Source: Candidatus Zixiibacteriota bacterium (GTDB lineage: Bacteria; Zixibacteria; MSB-5A5; GN15; FEB-12). From it: DNA of 36,342 nucleotides. Positions 4,087 through 12,264 of the stretch are shown here, piece after piece. The DNA lies in the NCBI GenBank assembly GCA_024277795.1, contig JAJRUL010000119.1, positions 1 to 36,342 of the forward strand, read 5' to 3'. Position 1 is the stretch's first letter; each line of letters begins with the position of its first letter. The notes beneath the pieces are model-generated. The model was not told where the DNA came from and did no database searches. It was given only the letters and a program-made list of their open reading frames with translations. The position numbers were made by a program, and so were the translations under genes.

Positions 4087-4750
4087 TTGTTATTTCACAA
4101 CTCATGTCGACCGTTAGTTATACTTTTGCGCGGACAAAACTCTATCCGCGATGTTATGACCAAAAGGTCTGTGGCAACAGGCTGTCAAATTACACTGCGA
4201 CCTCTAGGATGTCAAGGGATAACCCCCTCTTTTCATTCACAATTCAACCTACTAAGTTTTTGCTAAGTGGTCTTTTACGCATAGTGAGATAATGACGAAT
4301 GAAGGCAGGACAATGTCTATTATAAATGGTAATAAAGTGGCCAAAAAACTTACGCAATCTACAATTAGTTGAACGCAAGAAAGTTACATCAGAAGATTCA
4401 AAGGATAATGAGATCAGAGTAAACGATCTTATTAAAAAAAGTACTGAGTGACAGTTGCGACGGGTACTGCAAAGTTGTTTTCGCTGATTCTGTGAGATTT
4501 GTCCCCTTTGTCTGGTAAACACTTACCTGTCGGGTCAAATCCGCCAAGGCGGAGCAAGACCGAATACGACGACTCAGGAAGTTATCAACCTTCTCAAACT
4601 GAAGAATCACATCAAATTTTAATTAAAGGAAAAATATTCCGATTATAACGGGTACATCAAGGTTATTCTTGACTGTATGATTGTCTTATTGGCCTGAGAA
4701 AAGCTTATTAACATAATGTGGTTCATCCTGTTAACGTTTTTCTTCTGCTC
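4087..4750. other. Intergenic region between divergent porin and polysaccharide-export genes
   Basis: About 0.66 kb with no convincing coding sequence; the short track ORFs here have no recognisable protein character. It holds the possible porin promoter near 4200, a small perfect hairpin TCCGCC-AA-GGCGGA (4540-4553) of the kind also seen in the repeat-rich region after recA, and the upstream flank of the sigma-54 promoter at 4751, where an enhancer-binding protein would be expected to bind. I see no clear dyad operator. Confidence 0.5.
4187..4215 (-). promoter_or_regulatory. Possible sigma-70 type promoter for the FadL-type porin operon
   Basis: On the minus strand a perfect TTGACA (4210-4215) is followed after 17 bases by TAATTT (4187-4192). 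A second TTGACA overlaps the downstream side. It would give a ~155-nt leader before the preferred start at 4023. This is a pattern match only. Confidence 0.35.
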
Positions 4751-4766
4751 TGGCACCTTCCTTGCA
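4751..4766 (+). promoter_or_regulatory. Sigma-54 (RpoN) promoter of the polysaccharide export gene
   Basis: TGGCACCTTCCTTGCA matches the -24/-12 consensus TGGCACG-N4-TTGCW with correct spacing; only the G of CACG differs. Transcription would start about 12 bases after the GC of TTGCA, near 4776. That excludes the ORF-track start at 4762, which lies inside the -12 element, and fits the start at 4828. Confidence 0.75.
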
Positions 4767-4827
4767 TAAATGCTCTCAGATTCGAAGAGGATGTCGAATC
4801 GTTGAGGAAAGTAATAGGAAGGTTGTT

Positions 4828-7185
4828 ATGCGAAAAGTTATTTTACTGATCATTCTAATGATTGTTCTGGTTTCTTTGAACTGGTTCAAAGAGCTGGTTG
4901 CTCAGGATCTTTCTACAATGGACCCAGATGAGCTTACTCGTTTGGCTGAGGAGTACAAGAAATCAGGAATGTCCATTGAGGAAGCCCAATACTACAAATC
5001 TCCTGAGATCTTCAAAAGTACAACTATCGATAGTATGAAAGAAGATCATCAAGGTAAGGCTTCAGGAGAGTTCAACAACTCTCTTTCGGCAACGAAGAAA
5101 GAGAACGCTATTTCTGAGCGATCAGACAAAATTCCGTTTGATGAATTGCTTCCGTATGGGATAGAACTGTTTGCTCATTCAGGAAGCAGTAATTCCATTT
5201 CAGATCTGGCAAGTTCTTCTGACTATTTGTTGGGACCGGGTGATAATGTCATCATTTATCTTTGGGGAAGGGTTGAGAAAGAGTACAATGTTACCTTGGA
5301 TCGTGAGGGTAAAGTTATTATTCCACGAGTAGGTGAGATTGTCGGCTGGGGTTTGACTCTTGACCAATTCACAGCAAAAGTTAAAAAGCATTTAGAGCAA
5401 GTGTATTCTGAATTCGAATTGTCCGCCTCACTTGGGAAAATCCGTTCAATCCGTATTTTTGTAACAGGTGAAGTTCAGACTCCCGGGGCTTATACGGTTT
5501 CATCACTTACTTCAGTATTAAATGCACTCTTTATTGCGGGTGGTCCGAACCAACGCGGATCAATGCGACACATTAGAATCATGCGACAGGGAAAGCCAAT
5601 CGCAGAGTTTGACTTATATAATTTGTTGTTAAAGGGTGACAACTCTTCAGATATAACCCTCCAGTCAGGTGATGTTATCTTTGTTCCTGTGGCATCATCA
5701 CGAGTTGCAATTCGTGGTGAAGTTCGACGAGCGGCATGGTTTGAGATGTCTGATTCTGCAACAGCGAATGATTTGATACAACTGGCGGGCGGTGCGGAAC
5801 CGGAAGCATATCTTGAACGAGTCATGCTCGAGCATATAAATGATCTAGGTGAGTGGGAAGTTATCGATTTGAATCTCAAATGCGATGACGATTTGCTATG
5901 TAACGATATTGTTCTTTCCGATGGTGACAGACTGACAGTCTATTCGATTTTTGAAGCACGAAACAATATGGTTACGATACAAGGACATGTTCAGCATCCT
6001 GGATATTATGAACGTAATAATGAGACAAGACTTTCAGATCTGTTAAAACGTGGGCAATTGCGAACCTATGATGTCTATATGAAACGAGCAGATCTTTTCA
6101 GGCGGTATCCTGACCGAAGATCTGAAATAATATCAATTGATCTGACCCGTGTACTCAATGGTGACCCTGAGGCTGATATATTGCTGAAGGATCGCGACTC
6201 ACTCAGAGTGTATTCTTTCTCAGAAGTGCAACATGAAAGCTACGTATATATTGAAGGTGAGGTTGAGAAACCGGGACGGTATCCATTATATTCTGGGATG
6301 ACGGCAGAAGATTTGATCTTTCTTGCGGGTTCCTATACAAGGTCTGCATCAACTCATAGAGCTGAGATAGCTAGACTAGACGCCTCAGGACAATCAACAC
6401 TAATCAATATTGATCTTGAAAATGAAGAGTCGCTTACATTTGAATTACAGGAAGATGACCATTTATATATTAGACCTATTCCTCAATGGAAACAGGATAG
6501 AAGTATAGTCATTACAGGAGAAGTATCTCATCCCGGTACGTATTGGTTGAACAATGATGGTGAGACTCTTCGTAGCATCATTAGACGATGTGGTGGTTTC
6601 ACAAGCCACGCTTTTCCACAAGGATTATCTTTAGAACGACCTACTATTGCAGAGTCGTTGAATAAGCTCAATATTGATGAGCTTATCAAGAGATCTGTTG
6701 AGATTGAACGCGATTCACTGGGCAGAATTGTAAAGAATGAGATACAACAATATGATGTCAAATCTATGAATCGTATTGTAGTTGATATCAATTGTATTAT
6801 GAATTCTGATTGTGACGGTGAAGAATTATATCTTCAACCCGGTGATCGGATATATGTACCTGCTAAGCCATCAGGTATTTCCATAATGGGTGCAATTGGT
6901 GCGAACGGGACAATTCGTTATATGGAGAAAAAGAAGGTTAAATACTATATAGAAAAAGCAGGCGGGTTTACTCGTCAGGCTGATAAGAGTGAAACACGAT
7001 TGATTCGTGCGTGGGGAGAAGTTGTATCAGGTGGTGGTATCCTCGGTAAACAGGTACAGGATGGTGATATTATTGTTGTACCGTCTCGTATTAAAGAGAA
7101 AAAGAACTGGTTCAAGACAATGACTCAGGCTCTTACTGCAACGACAGGTATTCTCACCTCCGTATATTTAGTGAGCAAACTATAA
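4828..7185 (+). CDS. Multi-SLBB polysaccharide export protein (Wza-like)
   Basis: A ~785-residue protein with an N-terminal signal segment (MRKVILLIILMIVLVSLNWF). It continues with the polysaccharide-export domain, recognised by 'YLLGPGDNVIIYLWG' and 'GKVIIPRVGEI', and then about six SLBB-type beta-grasp units, each beginning like 'VTGEVQTPGAY', 'IQGHVQHPGYY' or 'IEGEVEKPGRY'. Such proteins form the outer-membrane/periplasmic channel for capsule or exopolysaccharide. The last ~25 residues form a moderately hydrophobic or amphipathic helix, as in the Wza pore. Start 4828 is preferred: AGGAAGG lies five bases upstream, and the upstream track start lies inside the sigma-54 promoter. No Wzc-like kinase, flippase or polymerase gene is adjacent, so the export locus here is incomplete. 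Confidence 0.85.
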   Translation: MRKVILLIILMIVLVSLNWFKELVAQDLSTMDPDELTRLAEEYKKSGMSIEEAQYYKSPEIFKSTTIDSMKEDHQGKASGEFNNSLSATKKENAISERSDKIPFDELLPYGIELFAHSGSSNSISDLASSSDYLLGPGDNVIIYLWGRVEKEYNVTLDREGKVIIPRVGEIVGWGLTLDQFTAKVKKHLEQVYSEFELSASLGKIRSIRIFVTGEVQTPGAYTVSSLTSVLNALFIAGGPNQRGSMRHIRIMRQGKPIAEFDLYNLLLKGDNSSDITLQSGDVIFVPVASSRVAIRGEVRRAAWFEMSDSATANDLIQLAGGAEPEAYLERVMLEHINDLGEWEVIDLNLKCDDDLLCNDIVLSDGDRLTVYSIFEARNNMVTIQGHVQHPGYYERNNETRLSDLLKRGQLRTYDVYMKRADLFRRYPDRRSEIISIDLTRVLNGDPEADILLKDRDSLRVYSFSEVQHESYVYIEGEVEKPGRYPLYSGMTAEDLIFLAGSYTRSASTHRAEIARLDASGQSTLINIDLENEESLTFELQEDDHLYIRPIPQWKQDRSIVITGEVSHPGTYWLNNDGETLRSIIRRCGGFTSHAFPQGLSLERPTIAESLNKLNIDELIKRSVEIERDSLGRIVKNEIQQYDVKSMNRIVVDINCIMNSDCDGEELYLQPGDRIYVPAKPSGISIMGAIGANGTIRYMEKKKVKYYIEKAGGFTRQADKSETRLIRAWGEVVSGGGILGKQVQDGDIIVVPSRIKEKKNWFKTMTQALTATTGILTSVYLVSKL

Positions 7186-7223
7186 AATTTTTTAGCTTAG
7201 TGTTTCCTATCCTACCTTCCTCA

Positions 7224-7262
7224 AAGCCCCGGAAGCGTCCACGACCTTCCGGGCTTTTTTTA
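7224..7262 (+). terminator. Rho-independent terminator after the SLBB export gene
   Basis: AGCCC(C)GGAAG pairs with CTTCCGGGCT with a single bulged C, followed by a run of seven T. It separates the export gene from the next gene, which has its own sigma-54 promoter. Confidence 0.85.
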
Positions 7263-7397
7263 TGCGGAAGATTTTTCATTCACATTCGGAAAAAACAAGC
7301 CATAACACACTTGGGCAATTAGTACGACTGAAACATCTGCCGTGTCAAATTGAAACAAGACAACGCCTTACACAACCTTCTTGATTATGTCTTTTTT
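7263..7397. other. Non-coding upstream region of the HisC-like gene
   Basis: No coding potential seen. It lies between the terminator and the sigma-54 promoter and is where an enhancer-binding protein would bind. TGTC-N12-GACA (in TGTCAAATTGAAACAAGACA) is a weak dyad about 50 bases upstream of the promoter. Confidence 0.35.
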
Positions 7398-7413
7398 TGG
7401 CAAGCTGGTTGCA
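7398..7413 (+). promoter_or_regulatory. Sigma-54 (RpoN) promoter of the HisC-like gene
   Basis: TGGCAAGCTGGTTGCA has the conserved GG and GC at -24/-12 with exact spacing to the consensus TGGCACG-N4-TTGCW. It lies about 110 bases upstream of the start codon. This is the second such site in the same locus, which strengthens both. Confidence 0.75.
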
Positions 7414-7521
7414 ATGATGAAATGTGTCAGCCCTATTACTGACATAAACAACCTGCTTACAGATTGAGAGCAGGTACGAACAGGGTGCACTATATGTCAC
7501 CCAGCAAGGAGTGTGATAGGT

Positions 7522-8571
7522 ATGGAGACCAGCATTACAAATCCAGTTGATATAGATGAGCTCGTTGCTCGCTTGAATCAACAAACAATGATTGCAGAGT
7601 CAAACGCTTGGCCGTTTGTCGATACGTCTGCCCTTATGGTTGATTTACTAAAAGGTGCATATGCAGTAGGCAGTCGCTTGATCAGCGCAGGTCACATTGG
7701 ACCTGAGATGGAGATTGTTGCCGATAAGGCAGAAATTGAATTGGTTGAAGCATTGGGACCGTCTCCTTTCAGTAGTGATACAAGGACTGTTATTGAGAAA
7801 ATAAATAGTTCACAAGACATATTATATGTTCCGTCGCCAAATAGAATTACTGGCACAACTTTTTCATTATCTGATCTCAAACTCTTGGCCGGTGCGGTTA
7901 CTGATGGCTTGATGATCGTAGATGAGTATTACTATGACTATTATGGGGTGACTGCTGAATTACTCCTATCAGATTATCCACATGTTGTCGTCTTGAGATC
8001 CTTTGCCGCTCCGTTCGGTATCGGTTCTTCGGATATTGGTTATGCTCTGGCAACTCCTGAAAAGATGAAAGACATTCGTCACTATTGTGAAGCTCGTCCA
8101 CTCTCAAGAACAGTTCGCCGTGCAATGCTCACTACGTTGGATAATGGTAAAGCACTTTCAATGAGAATTCGTGAAGTACATAGTGAATCATTACGTTTAG
8201 CAAATAAACTGACTCGTATGGGGGTACAGTGTCGTCTCACGTCAGCAGATTTTCTCTTGCTCAGGGTTGCAGATCCCTCGGCAATAGGTAATTCACTTGC
8301 CAGAACAAAAGTACCCATAATCAACTTAGATGGATACCCTGAGCTGAAGAACTACGTGGCGTACTATATTCAATCTGCAGAAACAAACGACAGATTGTTA
8401 CGCACTTTTGAACGAATTCCATACGAGAAATACCTCATGAAGAGCATAGATAAGCGTGCAATAACAATGAGGCTCAAAGGTGAGACACTTCGTTCAGAGC
8501 AAACTGTCAATCGGATATCCCGTTTTAATTCGAAGCAAACTATCTCTGAGAAAGAAGTTATTGAGGTCTGA
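7522..8571 (+). CDS. HisC-like fold-type I aminotransferase homologue lacking the PLP lysine
   Basis: The middle and C-terminal parts align with histidinol-phosphate aminotransferase (HisC)-type proteins: 'LMIVDEYYYDYYG' corresponds to the VDEAY motif that contacts the PLP ring, 'DYPHVVVLRSF' and 'GSSDIGYALATPEKM' to the strand-loop around the active site, and 'LLLRVADPSAI' to the C-terminal domain. In HisC the segment reads R-T-F-S-K-A-Y-G-L-A-G-x-R; here it reads R-S-F-A-A-P-F-G-I-G-S-S-D. The Schiff-base Lys is therefore Ala (residue 166 of the ORF track) and the phosphate-binding Arg is Asp. The 'NPNNPTG' motif is also degraded to 'SPNRITG'. The N-terminal part is poorly conserved. I infer a non-catalytic paralogue used for regulation or sugar-nucleotide binding in the polysaccharide locus. 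The start at ATG 7522 is chosen over GTG 7513, which is only two bases after AAGGAG. Confidence 0.7.
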   Translation: METSITNPVDIDELVARLNQQTMIAESNAWPFVDTSALMVDLLKGAYAVGSRLISAGHIGPEMEIVADKAEIELVEALGPSPFSSDTRTVIEKINSSQDILYVPSPNRITGTTFSLSDLKLLAGAVTDGLMIVDEYYYDYYGVTAELLLSDYPHVVVLRSFAAPFGIGSSDIGYALATPEKMKDIRHYCEARPLSRTVRRAMLTTLDNGKALSMRIREVHSESLRLANKLTRMGVQCRLTSADFLLLRVADPSAIGNSLARTKVPIINLDGYPELKNYVAYYIQSAETNDRLLRTFERIPYEKYLMKSIDKRAITMRLKGETLRSEQTVNRISRFNSKQTISEKEVIEV

Positions 8572-8750: not shown

Positions 8751-10181
8751 GTGTCGAAGAAGCAACAACAAGAAACTAACATAGATCGCATAAAACGGAG
8801 GATGTTATTACATGCGATAGGGTCCGGTGGACGATTTATAGCGTCCTTAACTGCGATACAGATTCTATGTTATGTTTTTTCTGTCCCTTTAAATCTCAAT
8901 TTGCAAATTGTCTCAACACTGTTGATCATACGTGTTCTTGTTGAGTTGACAACATTTGAACCGAGAGTTCTGGAATCAAGTCTGGTACAAAAGCATTCAT
9001 TGCAGATACTCGGAACTGAGATACGTGTCAGTATTGCACTTTTTGCCTCATGTTGGTTATTCAAATGGAACATAGAGCAAAAGGTTATGCTCTATTTCTT
9101 CGGTTTGAACATTCTATTTCATTTTGTTCATCTTCTCTTAACAACGAAAGTTCTTAAGAGCTTGATGTACAAAAGAGGAAATGCTCAAGTTGTATCGAGC
9201 AATAGAGTTGTGATAGTCGGTACCGGTCAATGTGGGAAAGCGATTGCAGATATGTTGCTCTGTTCACCTGAGCTCGATGTTTCAATCGAAGGATTCTTAG
9301 ATTATCATCGAAAGGGCCTTTGGAGATATAGAGATATTCCACTAATCGGACATCCTGATATGTTGGAATCGATCATTGCGAAAGGACAACTCGATGCATT
9401 GATCGTTGCAACCGAACAGGAAGATCTCAAAAGAACAGGTTCACTTTTTTCAATCGCTGAAAAGATGGGTGTGACTATTAGTTTTGTTCCGACAATGTCA
9501 ACAAATTGCATTGCTCATCCAGTCCCGGCATCACTCAACGGTATGCCTACAATGTCTTACAGGTCAATCCCTGAAAATCGCCTTTCACTGATGGCAAAGA
9601 GTCTTTTTGATCGCGTGGGGGCGGCGATTGGATTGTTGCTTGCCTCTCCAATTATGCTTGCTTGTGCAATTGCGATTAAGTTGGAGAGTCCAGGGCCGGT
9701 TTTTTTCAGTCAAGTACGGTCAGGTCTCAATGGCAGAACATTTCGGTTGCTGAAGTTTCGGACTATGGTAGTTGATGCTGAAAAGAAGAAAGCAACATTG
9801 AATGATAAGAATGAAATGTCTGGTCCTGTTTTCAAAATTAGGAATGATCCGCGAGTAACAAGAATTGGTCGTTTACTGCGCAAGTTTTCTATTGATGAGA
9901 TACCGCAGTTTATCAATATCCTGCGTGGGGATATGTCGCTTGTTGGCCCGCGTCCACCATTACCATCAGAAGTAGAAAAATATGAACCGTGGCAACATAG
10001 GAAACTCTCAGTTAAACCCGGGTTGACATGTAAATGGCAGGTGAGCGGACGAAACAATATAGACTTTGAAAACTGGATGAAGCTCGACTTGGAATATATT
10101 GACAGTTGGTCTCTGTGGGAGGATACGAAAATTCTTGCACGTACACCAGTTGCTGTTCTCAAAGGGGACGGTGCTTCATAG
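8751..10181 (+). CDS. Polyprenyl glycosylphosphotransferase (initiating sugar transferase, WbaP/WcaJ type)
   Basis: The C-terminal bacterial sugar-transferase domain is complete. It begins at 'LFDRVGAAIGLLLASP', where a membrane helix precedes the catalytic part, and contains 'LKFRTM', 'TRIGRLLRKFSIDEIPQ', 'DMSLVGPRPP' and 'VKPGLTCKWQVSGR'. Upstream lies a Rossmann-like CoA-binding-type domain ('VVIVGTGQCGKAI'), preceded by several hydrophobic helices. This is the usual layout of undecaprenyl-phosphate sugar-1-phosphate transferases that start repeat-unit synthesis on the inner membrane. It lies downstream of the HisC-like gene in the same direction and may share its sigma-54 transcript. GTG 8751 has GGAAG close upstream; TTG 8724 is the alternative start (485 aa). 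The sugar specificity cannot be read from sequence. Confidence 0.88.
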   Translation: MSKKQQQETNIDRIKRRMLLHAIGSGGRFIASLTAIQILCYVFSVPLNLNLQIVSTLLIIRVLVELTTFEPRVLESSLVQKHSLQILGTEIRVSIALFASCWLFKWNIEQKVMLYFFGLNILFHFVHLLLTTKVLKSLMYKRGNAQVVSSNRVVIVGTGQCGKAIADMLLCSPELDVSIEGFLDYHRKGLWRYRDIPLIGHPDMLESIIAKGQLDALIVATEQEDLKRTGSLFSIAEKMGVTISFVPTMSTNCIAHPVPASLNGMPTMSYRSIPENRLSLMAKSLFDRVGAAIGLLLASPIMLACAIAIKLESPGPVFFSQVRSGLNGRTFRLLKFRTMVVDAEKKKATLNDKNEMSGPVFKIRNDPRVTRIGRLLRKFSIDEIPQFINILRGDMSLVGPRPPLPSEVEKYEPWQHRKLSVKPGLTCKWQVSGRNNIDFENWMKLDLEYIDSWSLWEDTKILARTPVAVLKGDGAS

Positions 10182-10293
10182 AAATGCAAAAGGTAAGGTA
10201 TTACGAATGAACAATCTGTACAAATGGATCATTGCTATAGCTGTCATAGCATTGTAGATCAAACGATAATCCCCCTACTGAAGATACTCTCCG

Positions 10294-10845
10294 CTATTCC
10301 TCTAACTCGACACCGAGAGCATCGGCCATTCGGTTGACATAGTTGAAGTAAGAAACAACTTGTACAATATCATGAAGAATGTGATCATCAAACCCAAGTG
10401 ATCTCATACCATTGATATAATCCTGATTGATTGTATGTGCCTTGAGAGTAATCATTTCGGTATAGTCAAGTATCTGCTTATCGAAAGAAGATATATTGGC
10501 GGAACGCCAGTCGGTTGTCAGTTCGTTTTTCAAGCTATCATCACATAAGCGTTCACCAAGTTTTTTAAGAGACCGCAACGCGGTCCAGTGATGCTCAATT
10601 CAGTAATGGCATTTGTTTATTGCAGAAACAACAGTTGCAATCATCTCACGTTGTGCGCGTGATAATGGAGATTTTTGAAACATTATCGAGCGGTAGAACT
10701 CAACATGATGTTGCATTGCTTTCGGATTCAAACCTGCAATCCGAACGATGTTTGCGGGAGTGTAGTTTGCTCCACCGTAGGATTCATACAGTTTTTTCAA
10801 TTCATCAGATGCATCTTCGTATTCGATATAATCAATATAGGCCAT
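10294..10845 (-). CDS. AhpD-like peroxidase-related selenoprotein (Sec82 encoded by in-frame TGA)
   Basis: The track splits this gene into 10600-10845 and 10294-10578, but both are in one frame separated by a single TGA (10600-10602). Read through, it is a 183-residue carboxymuconolactone decarboxylase/AhpD-family 'peroxidase-related' protein. It starts 'MAYIDYIEYEDASDELKKLY', has 'PLSRAQREMIATVVSAINKCHY' before the TGA and 'IEHHWTALR' after it, and ends 'YFNYVNRMADALGVELEE'. The AhpD signature E-x11-C-x2-C-x3-H fits exactly as E67, C79, U82, H86, so the TGA replaces the second cysteine. A SECIS-like hairpin follows directly. AGGAG eight bases before ATG supports the start. AhpD-fold enzymes reduce peroxides or disulfides in the cytoplasm. 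A nonsense mutation of a Cys codon (TGC/TGT to TGA) is the alternative explanation. Confidence 0.82.
10571..10586 (-). promoter_or_regulatory. Bacterial SECIS-like hairpin for the AhpD-like selenoprotein
   Basis: On the mRNA strand, 20 nt after the TGA, GACCGC-GTT-GCGGTC forms a 6-bp perfect stem (7 with a G-U pair) and a three-base loop that starts with G. Bacterial SECIS elements are described as a hairpin with its loop roughly 16-37 nt after the UGA and a G in the first loop positions, which this meets. Confidence 0.72.
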
Positions 10846-10870
10846 TTATAATACTCCTGTCAGTTACTGC

Positions 10871-10905
10871 ATAAAAAAAGCCGGACTTATGCCCGACTTT
10901 TTTAT
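10871..10905 (-). terminator. Terminator of the truncated outer-membrane protein gene
   Basis: On the minus strand AAAGTCGGGC-ATAA-GTCCGGCTTT pairs fully if two G-U pairs are allowed, followed by a run of T. On the plus strand the same positions become C-A mismatches, so it is oriented leftward and lies just after the stop of the broken gene at 10920. Confidence 0.75.
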
Positions 10906-10919
10906 GCTATATGAGTTGC

Positions 10920-11209
10920 TTACATCGGAACGTAAAACGTTATTCCACCAGTTATAGTAACAAACGACGTTTTGAATCCAACTATCAGATTGGAGACATC
11001 TCTAATCTCTGTCTCTTCTGTATTGGCATAGACATACCCAAGCTCCCCGTTTATACTAAAGCTCGGTGACATCATGGCAACAATACCGATCCCTGCAAAG
11101 ACTCCAACAGTTGCTTTTGCTTCTATTTTTTCTGATGGAGATTTAAAGTCAAGTCCGGTTATATCAAGTCCCAGACGAAAAAACGGCCGAATGTTGCTTC
11201 CTGTCGATG
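10920..11209 (-). pseudogene. C-terminal remnant of an outer-membrane beta-barrel protein, cut by repeat and IS element
   Basis: Not listed in the ORF track. The minus frame ending at TAA 10920-10922 reads '...NIRPFFRLGLDITGLDF', 'AKATVGVFAGIGIVAMMSP', 'SINGELGYVYANTEE' and ends 'VTITGGITFYVPM'. These alternating strands are typical of small OmpW/opacity-like barrels. The gene is cut at 11209 by the IS. If the IS is removed, the frame continues only into repeat sequence and meets a stop about 100 bases further on, with no signal peptide. The N-terminal half is therefore missing. Confidence 0.6.
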
Positions 11210-12264
11210 CTGTATAAGTTAGTTAATTCGTAGCCAAAATTATAATATATTAAACATAAAGGTAATTTTGAGTTATGCGATTAAATAGCCAAGATAGTAC
11301 AATCAAGCGTAATTATCTTCAGAAGTATCGTTTTTTAATGAAGGAATATGAGTTAGTAAAAAAGAAAGAACATCCCAAATACAAATTTGTATGGGAGTTT
11401 TATGAATCAACAGATACTGACCGTCGGACATTTTTAAAGTATTACAATCGTTATAAACAAAGCGGTAAAGAGAGTGATCTTCTGCCACGTAAACGAGGTC
11501 CAAAATGGAAGAGCAGATGTCCTCTTCCGTTTATTGAGAATAAGGTTCTTTCGCTTCGAGAAAAAGGGTTGAATAGATATGAGATAATTCATATTTTAAA
11601 ACCGAAACTAAAAAGTCATACACCCTCACCGTCAGGTGTCTATAATATATTTAAGCGTCATAATGTAAATAGGTTACGTCCTCCAATGAAAGCAAATAAG
11701 CGATTGATAATTAAGAAAAAAGCTGGAGAATTAGGTCATATAGATAGTCATTACCTCTCAAAGTGTATTATTCACAGTGAGAGTCGACATCGTTACTTGG
11801 TTGTTGTTATTGATTCCTGTACTCGTGTTGCGTGGGCAGAGCTGGTTGATGACATTAAATCTCTGAGTGTAATGTTTGCGGCATTAAAATGTTTTAATAT
11901 CCTTGCTGATCATTATAATATCCGGTTTCAGGAGGTGTTAACAGATAATGGTCCAGAATTTGGAACAAAGGTTTCAAAGAAGAAAGATAATCATCCCTTT
12001 GAACGAATGTTGATGGAACTTGAAGTCAAACACAGATATACCCGACCGTATAGACCTCAAACAAATGGGAAAGCAGAAAGATTTTGGAGAACGATAGAAG
12101 AAAATTTGCTTCACGAAACAACCTTTGATTCAGTGGACGAATTAAAGGAAGAACTATTGCAATACCTCTACTATTATAATCAGGAAAGACCACATCAAGG
12201 TATAGGGGGAATAACACCTGTTGAATTTAACAAAAACTGTCCACGAATTACTTGACTTATACAG
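11210..12264 (+). mobile_element. IS481-like insertion sequence, intact, with 5-bp target duplication
   Basis: Terminal inverted repeats begin CTGTATAAGT on the left and end ACTTATACAG on the right; over about 27 bases the two ends agree except for five mismatches. The element is flanked on both sides by the direct repeat CGATG (11205-11209 and 12265-12269). It is 1055 bp long and contains one transposase gene. It inserted at the edge of a dispersed repeat next to the broken outer-membrane protein gene. Confidence 0.85.
11275..12255 (+). CDS. IS481-like DDE transposase (integrase core)
   Basis: A 326-residue transposase. The N-terminal ~130 residues contain helix-turn-helix-like segments ('RRTFLKYYNRYKQSG', 'RYEIIHILKPKL'), followed by an rve/DDE catalytic core. 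The likely catalytic acids are D157 in 'GHIDSHY', D224 in 'VLTDNGPEFG' and E268 in 'TNGKAERFWRTIE', and the C-terminus has the usual 'YYNQERPHQGIGGITP'. Length and motifs are those of IS481-type enzymes. No frameshift or stop is seen, and the inverted repeats are intact, so the element may still be active. It overlaps the right inverted repeat at its 3' end, as is common in compact IS elements. Confidence 0.9.
   Translation: MRLNSQDSTIKRNYLQKYRFLMKEYELVKKKEHPKYKFVWEFYESTDTDRRTFLKYYNRYKQSGKESDLLPRKRGPKWKSRCPLPFIENKVLSLREKGLNRYEIIHILKPKLKSHTPSPSGVYNIFKRHNVNRLRPPMKANKRLIIKKKAGELGHIDSHYLSKCIIHSESRHRYLVVVIDSCTRVAWAELVDDIKSLSVMFAALKCFNILADHYNIRFQEVLTDNGPEFGTKVSKKKDNHPFERMLMELEVKHRYTRPYRPQTNGKAERFWRTIEENLLHETTFDSVDELKEELLQYLYYYNQERPHQGIGGITPVEFNKNCPRIT

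Follow-up and report, generated by a model that had tools for sequence, protein, structure and literature searches.

Comparative sequence analysis confirmed two real and conserved sigma-54 promoters, P1 and P2, in a polysaccharide locus of an uncultured bacterium whose nearest named relatives are Candidatus Zixiibacteriota. Both promoters share an enhancer box with the promoter of the flagellar flgB gene. It is probable that a flagellar two-component pair resembling FlgS/FlgR or FlrB/FlrC co-activates the flagellum and polysaccharide export through sigma-54 at P1 and P2. The evidence consists throughout of sequences from metagenome-assembled genomes. The window, i.e. the whole stretch of 36,342 nucleotides that was analysed, is the entire contig C84 of a 2.96-Mb metagenome-assembled genome of 252 contigs (G000); genes were called with a simple script as gene finder.

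Sigma-54 promoters of the polysaccharide locus

The plus strand encodes, in this order, an SLBB/Poly_export exporter, a HisC-like protein and a polyprenyl glycosylphosphotransferase (PHPT), while PIG-L, a 422-aa protein and FadL are encoded on the minus strand, divergent from the exporter. The gene order is conserved among relatives whose exporters are 50-56% identical; the left part of the locus is different in some members of the order. The features discussed here are:

4628-4640, plus strand: upstream box of P1, GGAAAAATATTCC, 123 bp upstream of the T of the -24 element (-121 to -127 in most family orthologues)
4751-4766, plus strand: sigma-54 -24/-12 element of P1, TGGCACCTTCCTTGCA, predicted transcription start near 4777
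4816-4823, plus strand: Shine-Dalgarno sequence of the exporter gene, AGGAAGGT, complementary to 7213-7221
4828-7185, plus strand: SLBB polysaccharide exporter (Poly_export and four SLBB stretches), with ATG 4828 as its true start
7213-7221, plus strand: 3' UTR element, TACCTTCCT, complementary to the exporter Shine-Dalgarno sequence and conserved 5' of the terminator
7223-7261, plus strand: rho-independent terminator 3' of the exporter gene (hairpin and T run), at the equivalent position in relatives
7266-7278, plus strand: upstream box 1 of P2, GGAAGATTTTTCA, 132 bp upstream of the T of the -24 element
7288-7300, plus strand: upstream box 2 of P2, GGAAAAAACAAGC, 22 bp past box 1
7398-7413, plus strand: sigma-54 -24/-12 element of P2, TGGCAAGCTGGTTGCA, predicted transcription start near 7424
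7522-8571, plus strand: HisC-like protein of the aminotransferase fold, without lysine at the PLP-lysine position
8751-10181, plus strand: PHPT, the initiating sugar transferase (TIGR03025), longest ORF from 8724

A preliminary description of this DNA had placed two sites with the invariant GG and GC at exact spacing directly upstream of the exporter and HisC-like genes, and both the positions and the spacing proved correct. P1 matches TGGCACNNNNNTTGCW without mismatch and P2 with one, and in both the GG and GC dinucleotides of TGGCACN5TTGCW are 10 bp apart. A sigma-54 promoter is expected to start transcription, in an RpoN-dependent manner, about 12 bp past the C of its -12 element; the predicted starts are near 4777 and 7424. 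The sites are intergenic, P1 77 bp 5' of ATG 4828 and P2 124 bp 5' of ATG 7522, and since the terminator at 7223-7261 precedes P2, the latter starts a separate transcription unit. The rpoN gene, on whose presence the same description had made its proposal depend, is found in the genome (PF04552, E 8.9e-58). It had judged two such sites in one locus unlikely by chance. A scan of the window allowing up to 3 mismatches gave 150 matches versus 142 expected by chance, so that the argument rests on the near-exact sites and on conservation.

A -24/-12 element was present 62-95 bp before the ATG in all 43 exporter loci first examined, a set drawn from two collections in which some genomes are counted twice. 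Among family loci, the strict core occurs at P1 in 26 of 29 (shuffle mean 0.67, maximum 4) and at P2 in 24 of 28 (mean 0.88, maximum 4), as compared to 1 of 27 and 0 of 27 in the control regions upstream of PHPT and FadL. The exceptions at P1 are locus L116, where GG/GC is retained and the -12 element reads GTGC, and genomes G015 (L131) and G007 (L163), which have TTGT at the position of TTGC. In an alignment anchored on the -24 element of P1, identity is 0.70 in the core versus 0.26-0.29, about the random level, in flanking and linker sequence, which argues for selection on the P1 core rather than recent descent. Both promoters recur at orthologous places while the family proteins are about 50% identical.

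PHPT is probably second in the P2 operon; a sigma-54 core of its own is absent upstream in 26 of 27 relatives. In relatives, a gene for a Wzi-type capsule assembly protein continues this operon. At 10182-12255 of the window this gene has shrunk to a short remnant; unrelated genes come next, along with a transposase of the rve family, ahead of recA. The HisC-like protein is probably inactive as an aminotransferase, because the PLP-site lysine is missing in all 37 aligned relatives (SFSKAFG is replaced by SFAAPFG, SFTAAFG etc.); the upstream VDE motif is kept. The sequences suggest that this polysaccharide operon includes a conserved pseudo-aminotransferase.

Shared enhancer boxes and candidate activator

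A paired box, GGAA-N5-TTCC, lies upstream of both P1 and P2, often with a second copy about 22 bp further on; in the window, the second box of P1 is degenerate, leaving one good box. Box and core occur together at P1 in 21 of 29 loci and at P2 in 16 of 28 (shuffles approximately 0). The flgB promoter carries paired boxes at about -124/-102, and a matrix trained on the flgB boxes alone recovers both polysaccharide enhancers: its top-ranking match falls within the enhancer zone at P1 in 26 of 27 genomes and at P2 in 23 of 24. The shared upstream sites for which the preliminary description had suggested looking are thus present, and in the genome these boxes are nearly confined to P1, P2 and flgB. 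Control of exopolysaccharide by RpoN and an enhancer-binding protein (EBP), as proposed there, is supported by rpoN, the conserved promoters and the shared enhancer.

In the genome, flgB is part of a cluster in the order histidine kinase, sigma-54 response regulator (EBP), motA, motB and flgB, and this order, with the boxes and a sigma-54 promoter between motB and flgB, is kept in about 30 genomes. The EBP (G000:C29:696-2045) comprises a receiver, a full AAA+ domain and HTH_8; proteins of this type share 70-79% identity across most of the family and occur in 61 of 61 good-quality relatives. A candidate for the expected enhancer-binding regulator was therefore found, encoded with flagellar genes and not in the polysaccharide locus. 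We infer that the C29 EBP binds at P1, P2 and flgB, that the direction is activation and that phosphorylation is the signal. Its GAFTGA loop reads GAFTDA, as in the other family EBPs; GAFTGA itself is found in sister family f2 and most of f4. The same G-to-D change is described for epsilonproteobacterial FlgR by Francke et al. (2011, PMC3162934). An EBP-like protein with HTH (G000:C110:26125-27525, L066), one of the 14 strong PF00158 matches, was rejected as activator, since without a GAFTGA loop it is not an ordinary sigma-54 activator.

Several points count against the C29 EBP. Besides its GAFTDA loop, shared though it is with FlgR, and the single good box of P1 in the window, the link with flgB amounts to guilt by association, and thirteen other PF00158 proteins are encoded in the genome (14 strong matches in total). 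An EBP on contig C201 is also found near a second sugar-transferase gene, the sigma-54 site and upstream region of which lie at a contig end. P1 and P2 may be sigma-54 promoters that use the shared boxes with another EBP, such as the C201 response regulator, which would then also act at flgB. The number of PF00158 proteins and the sigma-54 site of the PHPT gene near the C201 EBP fit such an arrangement, but in those family relatives that were examined no EBP gene adjoins the polysaccharide locus and the C29-type EBP is linked to a box-bearing promoter in those approximately 30 genomes, and we regard it as unlikely.

In genome G015 (L131, L302), the -12 element has GT for GC at both P1 and P2, the flgB promoter is altered as well, and the EBP is divergent, with GAFTHA in the loop. 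Here the activator loop and the -12 element may have changed together in nature; one case proves nothing, but it fits a single activator for all three promoters.

The boxes were also recovered without a prior motif, by an unbiased count of all gapped 4+4 dyads upstream of the promoters. GGAA-N5-TTCC ranks first at P1 (19 of 27 genomes; 5 for the best shuffled dyad), and at P2 the count returns GGAA-N4-TTTC (16 of 24), GGAA-N18-GGAA (14 of 24) and a conserved element of the 3' UTR, ACCTTCCT. Apart from this last element, no further strong conserved dyad appeared in the count. In relatives the boxes are paired at a separation of 21-23 bp, and their distances to the -24 element fall within 110-147 bp, in clusters about 10 bp apart (110-113, 120-127, 128-134 and 139-147). 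P1 boxes lie at 110-113 or 120-127 bp and P2 boxes at 124, 128-134 or 139-147 bp; the clustering is descriptive, the sequences being related, yet the P2 length classes fall in different branches.

Paired boxes two turns apart at preferred upstream distances are typical of EBP enhancers. The resemblance of the boxes described here in pairing, two-turn spacing and distance, the HTH_8 domain of the candidate EBP and the lack of another strong dyad in the count make it improbable that they bind a different factor of flagellar and polysaccharide promoters, such as a repressor or architectural protein, with the EBP binding elsewhere or acting from solution. It is true that the boxes are palindromes with no known owner and that some EBPs, among them epsilonproteobacterial FlgR (PMC3162934), are without a DNA-binding domain.

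Throughout the 2.96-Mb genome, TGGCAN6TTGCW has 25 matches, about half of them intergenic, versus 7 for the reversed control, and TGGCN7TTGC has 113 versus 38. Polysaccharide genes, where the preliminary description had suggested looking for clusters, do not account for most of these sites, which are also found at the flgB operon, a histidine kinase/EBP operon, a bacterial microcompartment (BMC) shell gene and a second PHPT gene, among others. The BMC shell gene lies behind an EBP gene and has its site (G000:C185:6462, L051) 227 bp upstream. The second PHPT gene (G000:C201:68-1081, L053) has its own sigma-54 site, with an EBP gene 3.5 kb on and the upstream region cut by the contig end.

At first-box distances the combination of box and core is found in the genome at P1, at P2 and at one site on contig C38, which was rejected as chance since it lies inside a coding gene; at the second-box distance there is one match, upstream of flgB. 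Reversed controls gave 0. Among 80 relative genomes, 67 contain matches with the correct spacing, which beyond P1 and P2 include, for the sister families f2 and f4, the operons of flgB and flgF. A control pattern with the -24/-12 spacing one base short matches in 35 genomes at scattered places, and at no exporter promoter among the matches listed. With this, and with both sites conserved throughout the family and in part of the order while the controls are clean, the notion that the -24/-12 matches are chance occurrences or relics without promoter function is scarcely credible even though about half of the TGGCAN6TTGCW matches in the genome are intragenic, and conservation refutes it unless the sites serve another DNA-binding protein of the same consensus.

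In some relatives of f1 and f4 (L232-L239, L243, L244), a large secreted beta-propeller/BACON protein with a T9SS-type tail is encoded behind the same enhancer and sigma-54 promoter. The corresponding gene of the genome under study (G000:C205, L323) retains the paired boxes with a degenerate -12 element, and is not counted as a regulon member here because it has no good -12.

Proposed mechanism and known systems

In the mechanism that we favour, P1 would drive the SLBB exporter unit and P2 the (pseudo)aminotransferase-PHPT operon. RNA polymerase with sigma-54 would wait at both as a closed complex. Paired dimers of a response regulator of the NtrC family would occupy the GGAA-N5-TTCC boxes, which lie 110-147 bp upstream, reach the polymerase through a DNA loop and use ATP hydrolysis to open the promoter. 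For this role the C29 EBP is the most likely candidate; it is encoded, together with its kinase, directly upstream of the motA-motB-flgB cluster. Because this EBP would bind the same boxes before flgB, flagellar basal-body genes and polysaccharide export would be co-activated. With somewhat less confidence we favour the broader reading that the basal-body operon and the polysaccharide export module are both direct targets of one flagellar two-component activator of sigma-54 promoters, which switches them on jointly, in some relatives together with the secreted beta-propeller protein, via an identical paired enhancer, that motility and coat are built together and not oppositely, and that this wiring is older than the family.

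P1 and P2 display every feature of sigma-54-dependent promoters that can be tested on sequence, and the enhancer system presumably works like a classical sigma-54/EBP regulon. The regulator resembles those of FlgS/FlgR of epsilonproteobacteria and FlrB/FlrC of Vibrio, in which a kinase and an NtrC-type response regulator are tied to flagellar sigma-54 promoters: it is an NtrC-type response regulator with a paired histidine kinase beside flagellar genes, and the same enhancer boxes occur at flgB, P1 and P2. Architecture and linkage would thus place it in the FlgR/FlrC type. It shares the GAFTDA motif with FlgR and differs from epsilonproteobacterial FlgR, as portrayed by Francke et al. (2011, PMC3162934), in possessing HTH_8 and in inferred targets that include polysaccharide export. 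Sigma-54 promoters at exopolysaccharide and flagellar genes are a general theme of that paper, as control of the bacterial exterior. It is a concept paper across phyla; in the portions considered, one enhancer common to a flagellar operon and an exopolysaccharide exporter is not described and Zixibacteria are not discussed. Desulfovibrio vulgaris has separate sigma-54 operons for flagella and exopolysaccharide, but there these are listed under different EBPs (DVU1063 for flagella, DVU0110 and DVUA0057 for exopolysaccharide; PMC4641369).

Another NtrC-family protein, Pseudomonas FleQ, governs both flagella and exopolysaccharide. At exopolysaccharide genes FleQ acts on sigma-70 promoters, where it uses c-di-GMP and works in the direction opposite to that at flagella, whereas here both sets of targets are preceded by sigma-54 promoters and the phospho-acceptor domain of the regulator is intact. 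A limited literature search found no case in which one flagellar phosphorelay serves flagella and exopolysaccharide alike through one sigma-54 enhancer. The two are usually viewed as opposite sides of the motile/sessile switch. The conserved shared enhancer predicts instead that flagella and polysaccharide are switched on together by one phosphorelay in an uncultured phylum; flagellum building and cell coating appear, from these sequences, to be under one two-component regulator. The analysis supplies a concrete regulator, a binding motif and a target list that are testable in vitro without culture, and is an example of regulon discovery by phylogenetic footprinting in metagenome genomes.

Start codon and untranslated regions of the exporter gene

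The longest ORF of the exporter begins at TTG 4762, inside the -12 element of P1, while homologues align from ATG 4828 onward, preceded by the Shine-Dalgarno sequence at 4816-4823; the correction of the start proposed in the preliminary description is borne out. A search of positions 4500-7600 against Rfam gave no match. In loci L110-L141 and L159-L166, the complement of the exporter Shine-Dalgarno sequence (TAGGAAGGTRA) occurs 19-57 nt past the stop codon, in one locus 103 nt past it, and immediately precedes the terminator. The longest Shine-Dalgarno complement has a mean of 10.0 nt for the exporter versus 5.8 for 355 other genes. Long-range pairing of the 5' and 3' UTRs of the exporter transcript is possible on this basis. 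Such pairing has a precedent in icaR of S. aureus. Covariation of the complementary segments was considered and rejected: simple counting gave 34 of 39, but on the tree there are one paired and three unpaired A-T/G-C changes. Single compensations are also seen in L110 and L116.
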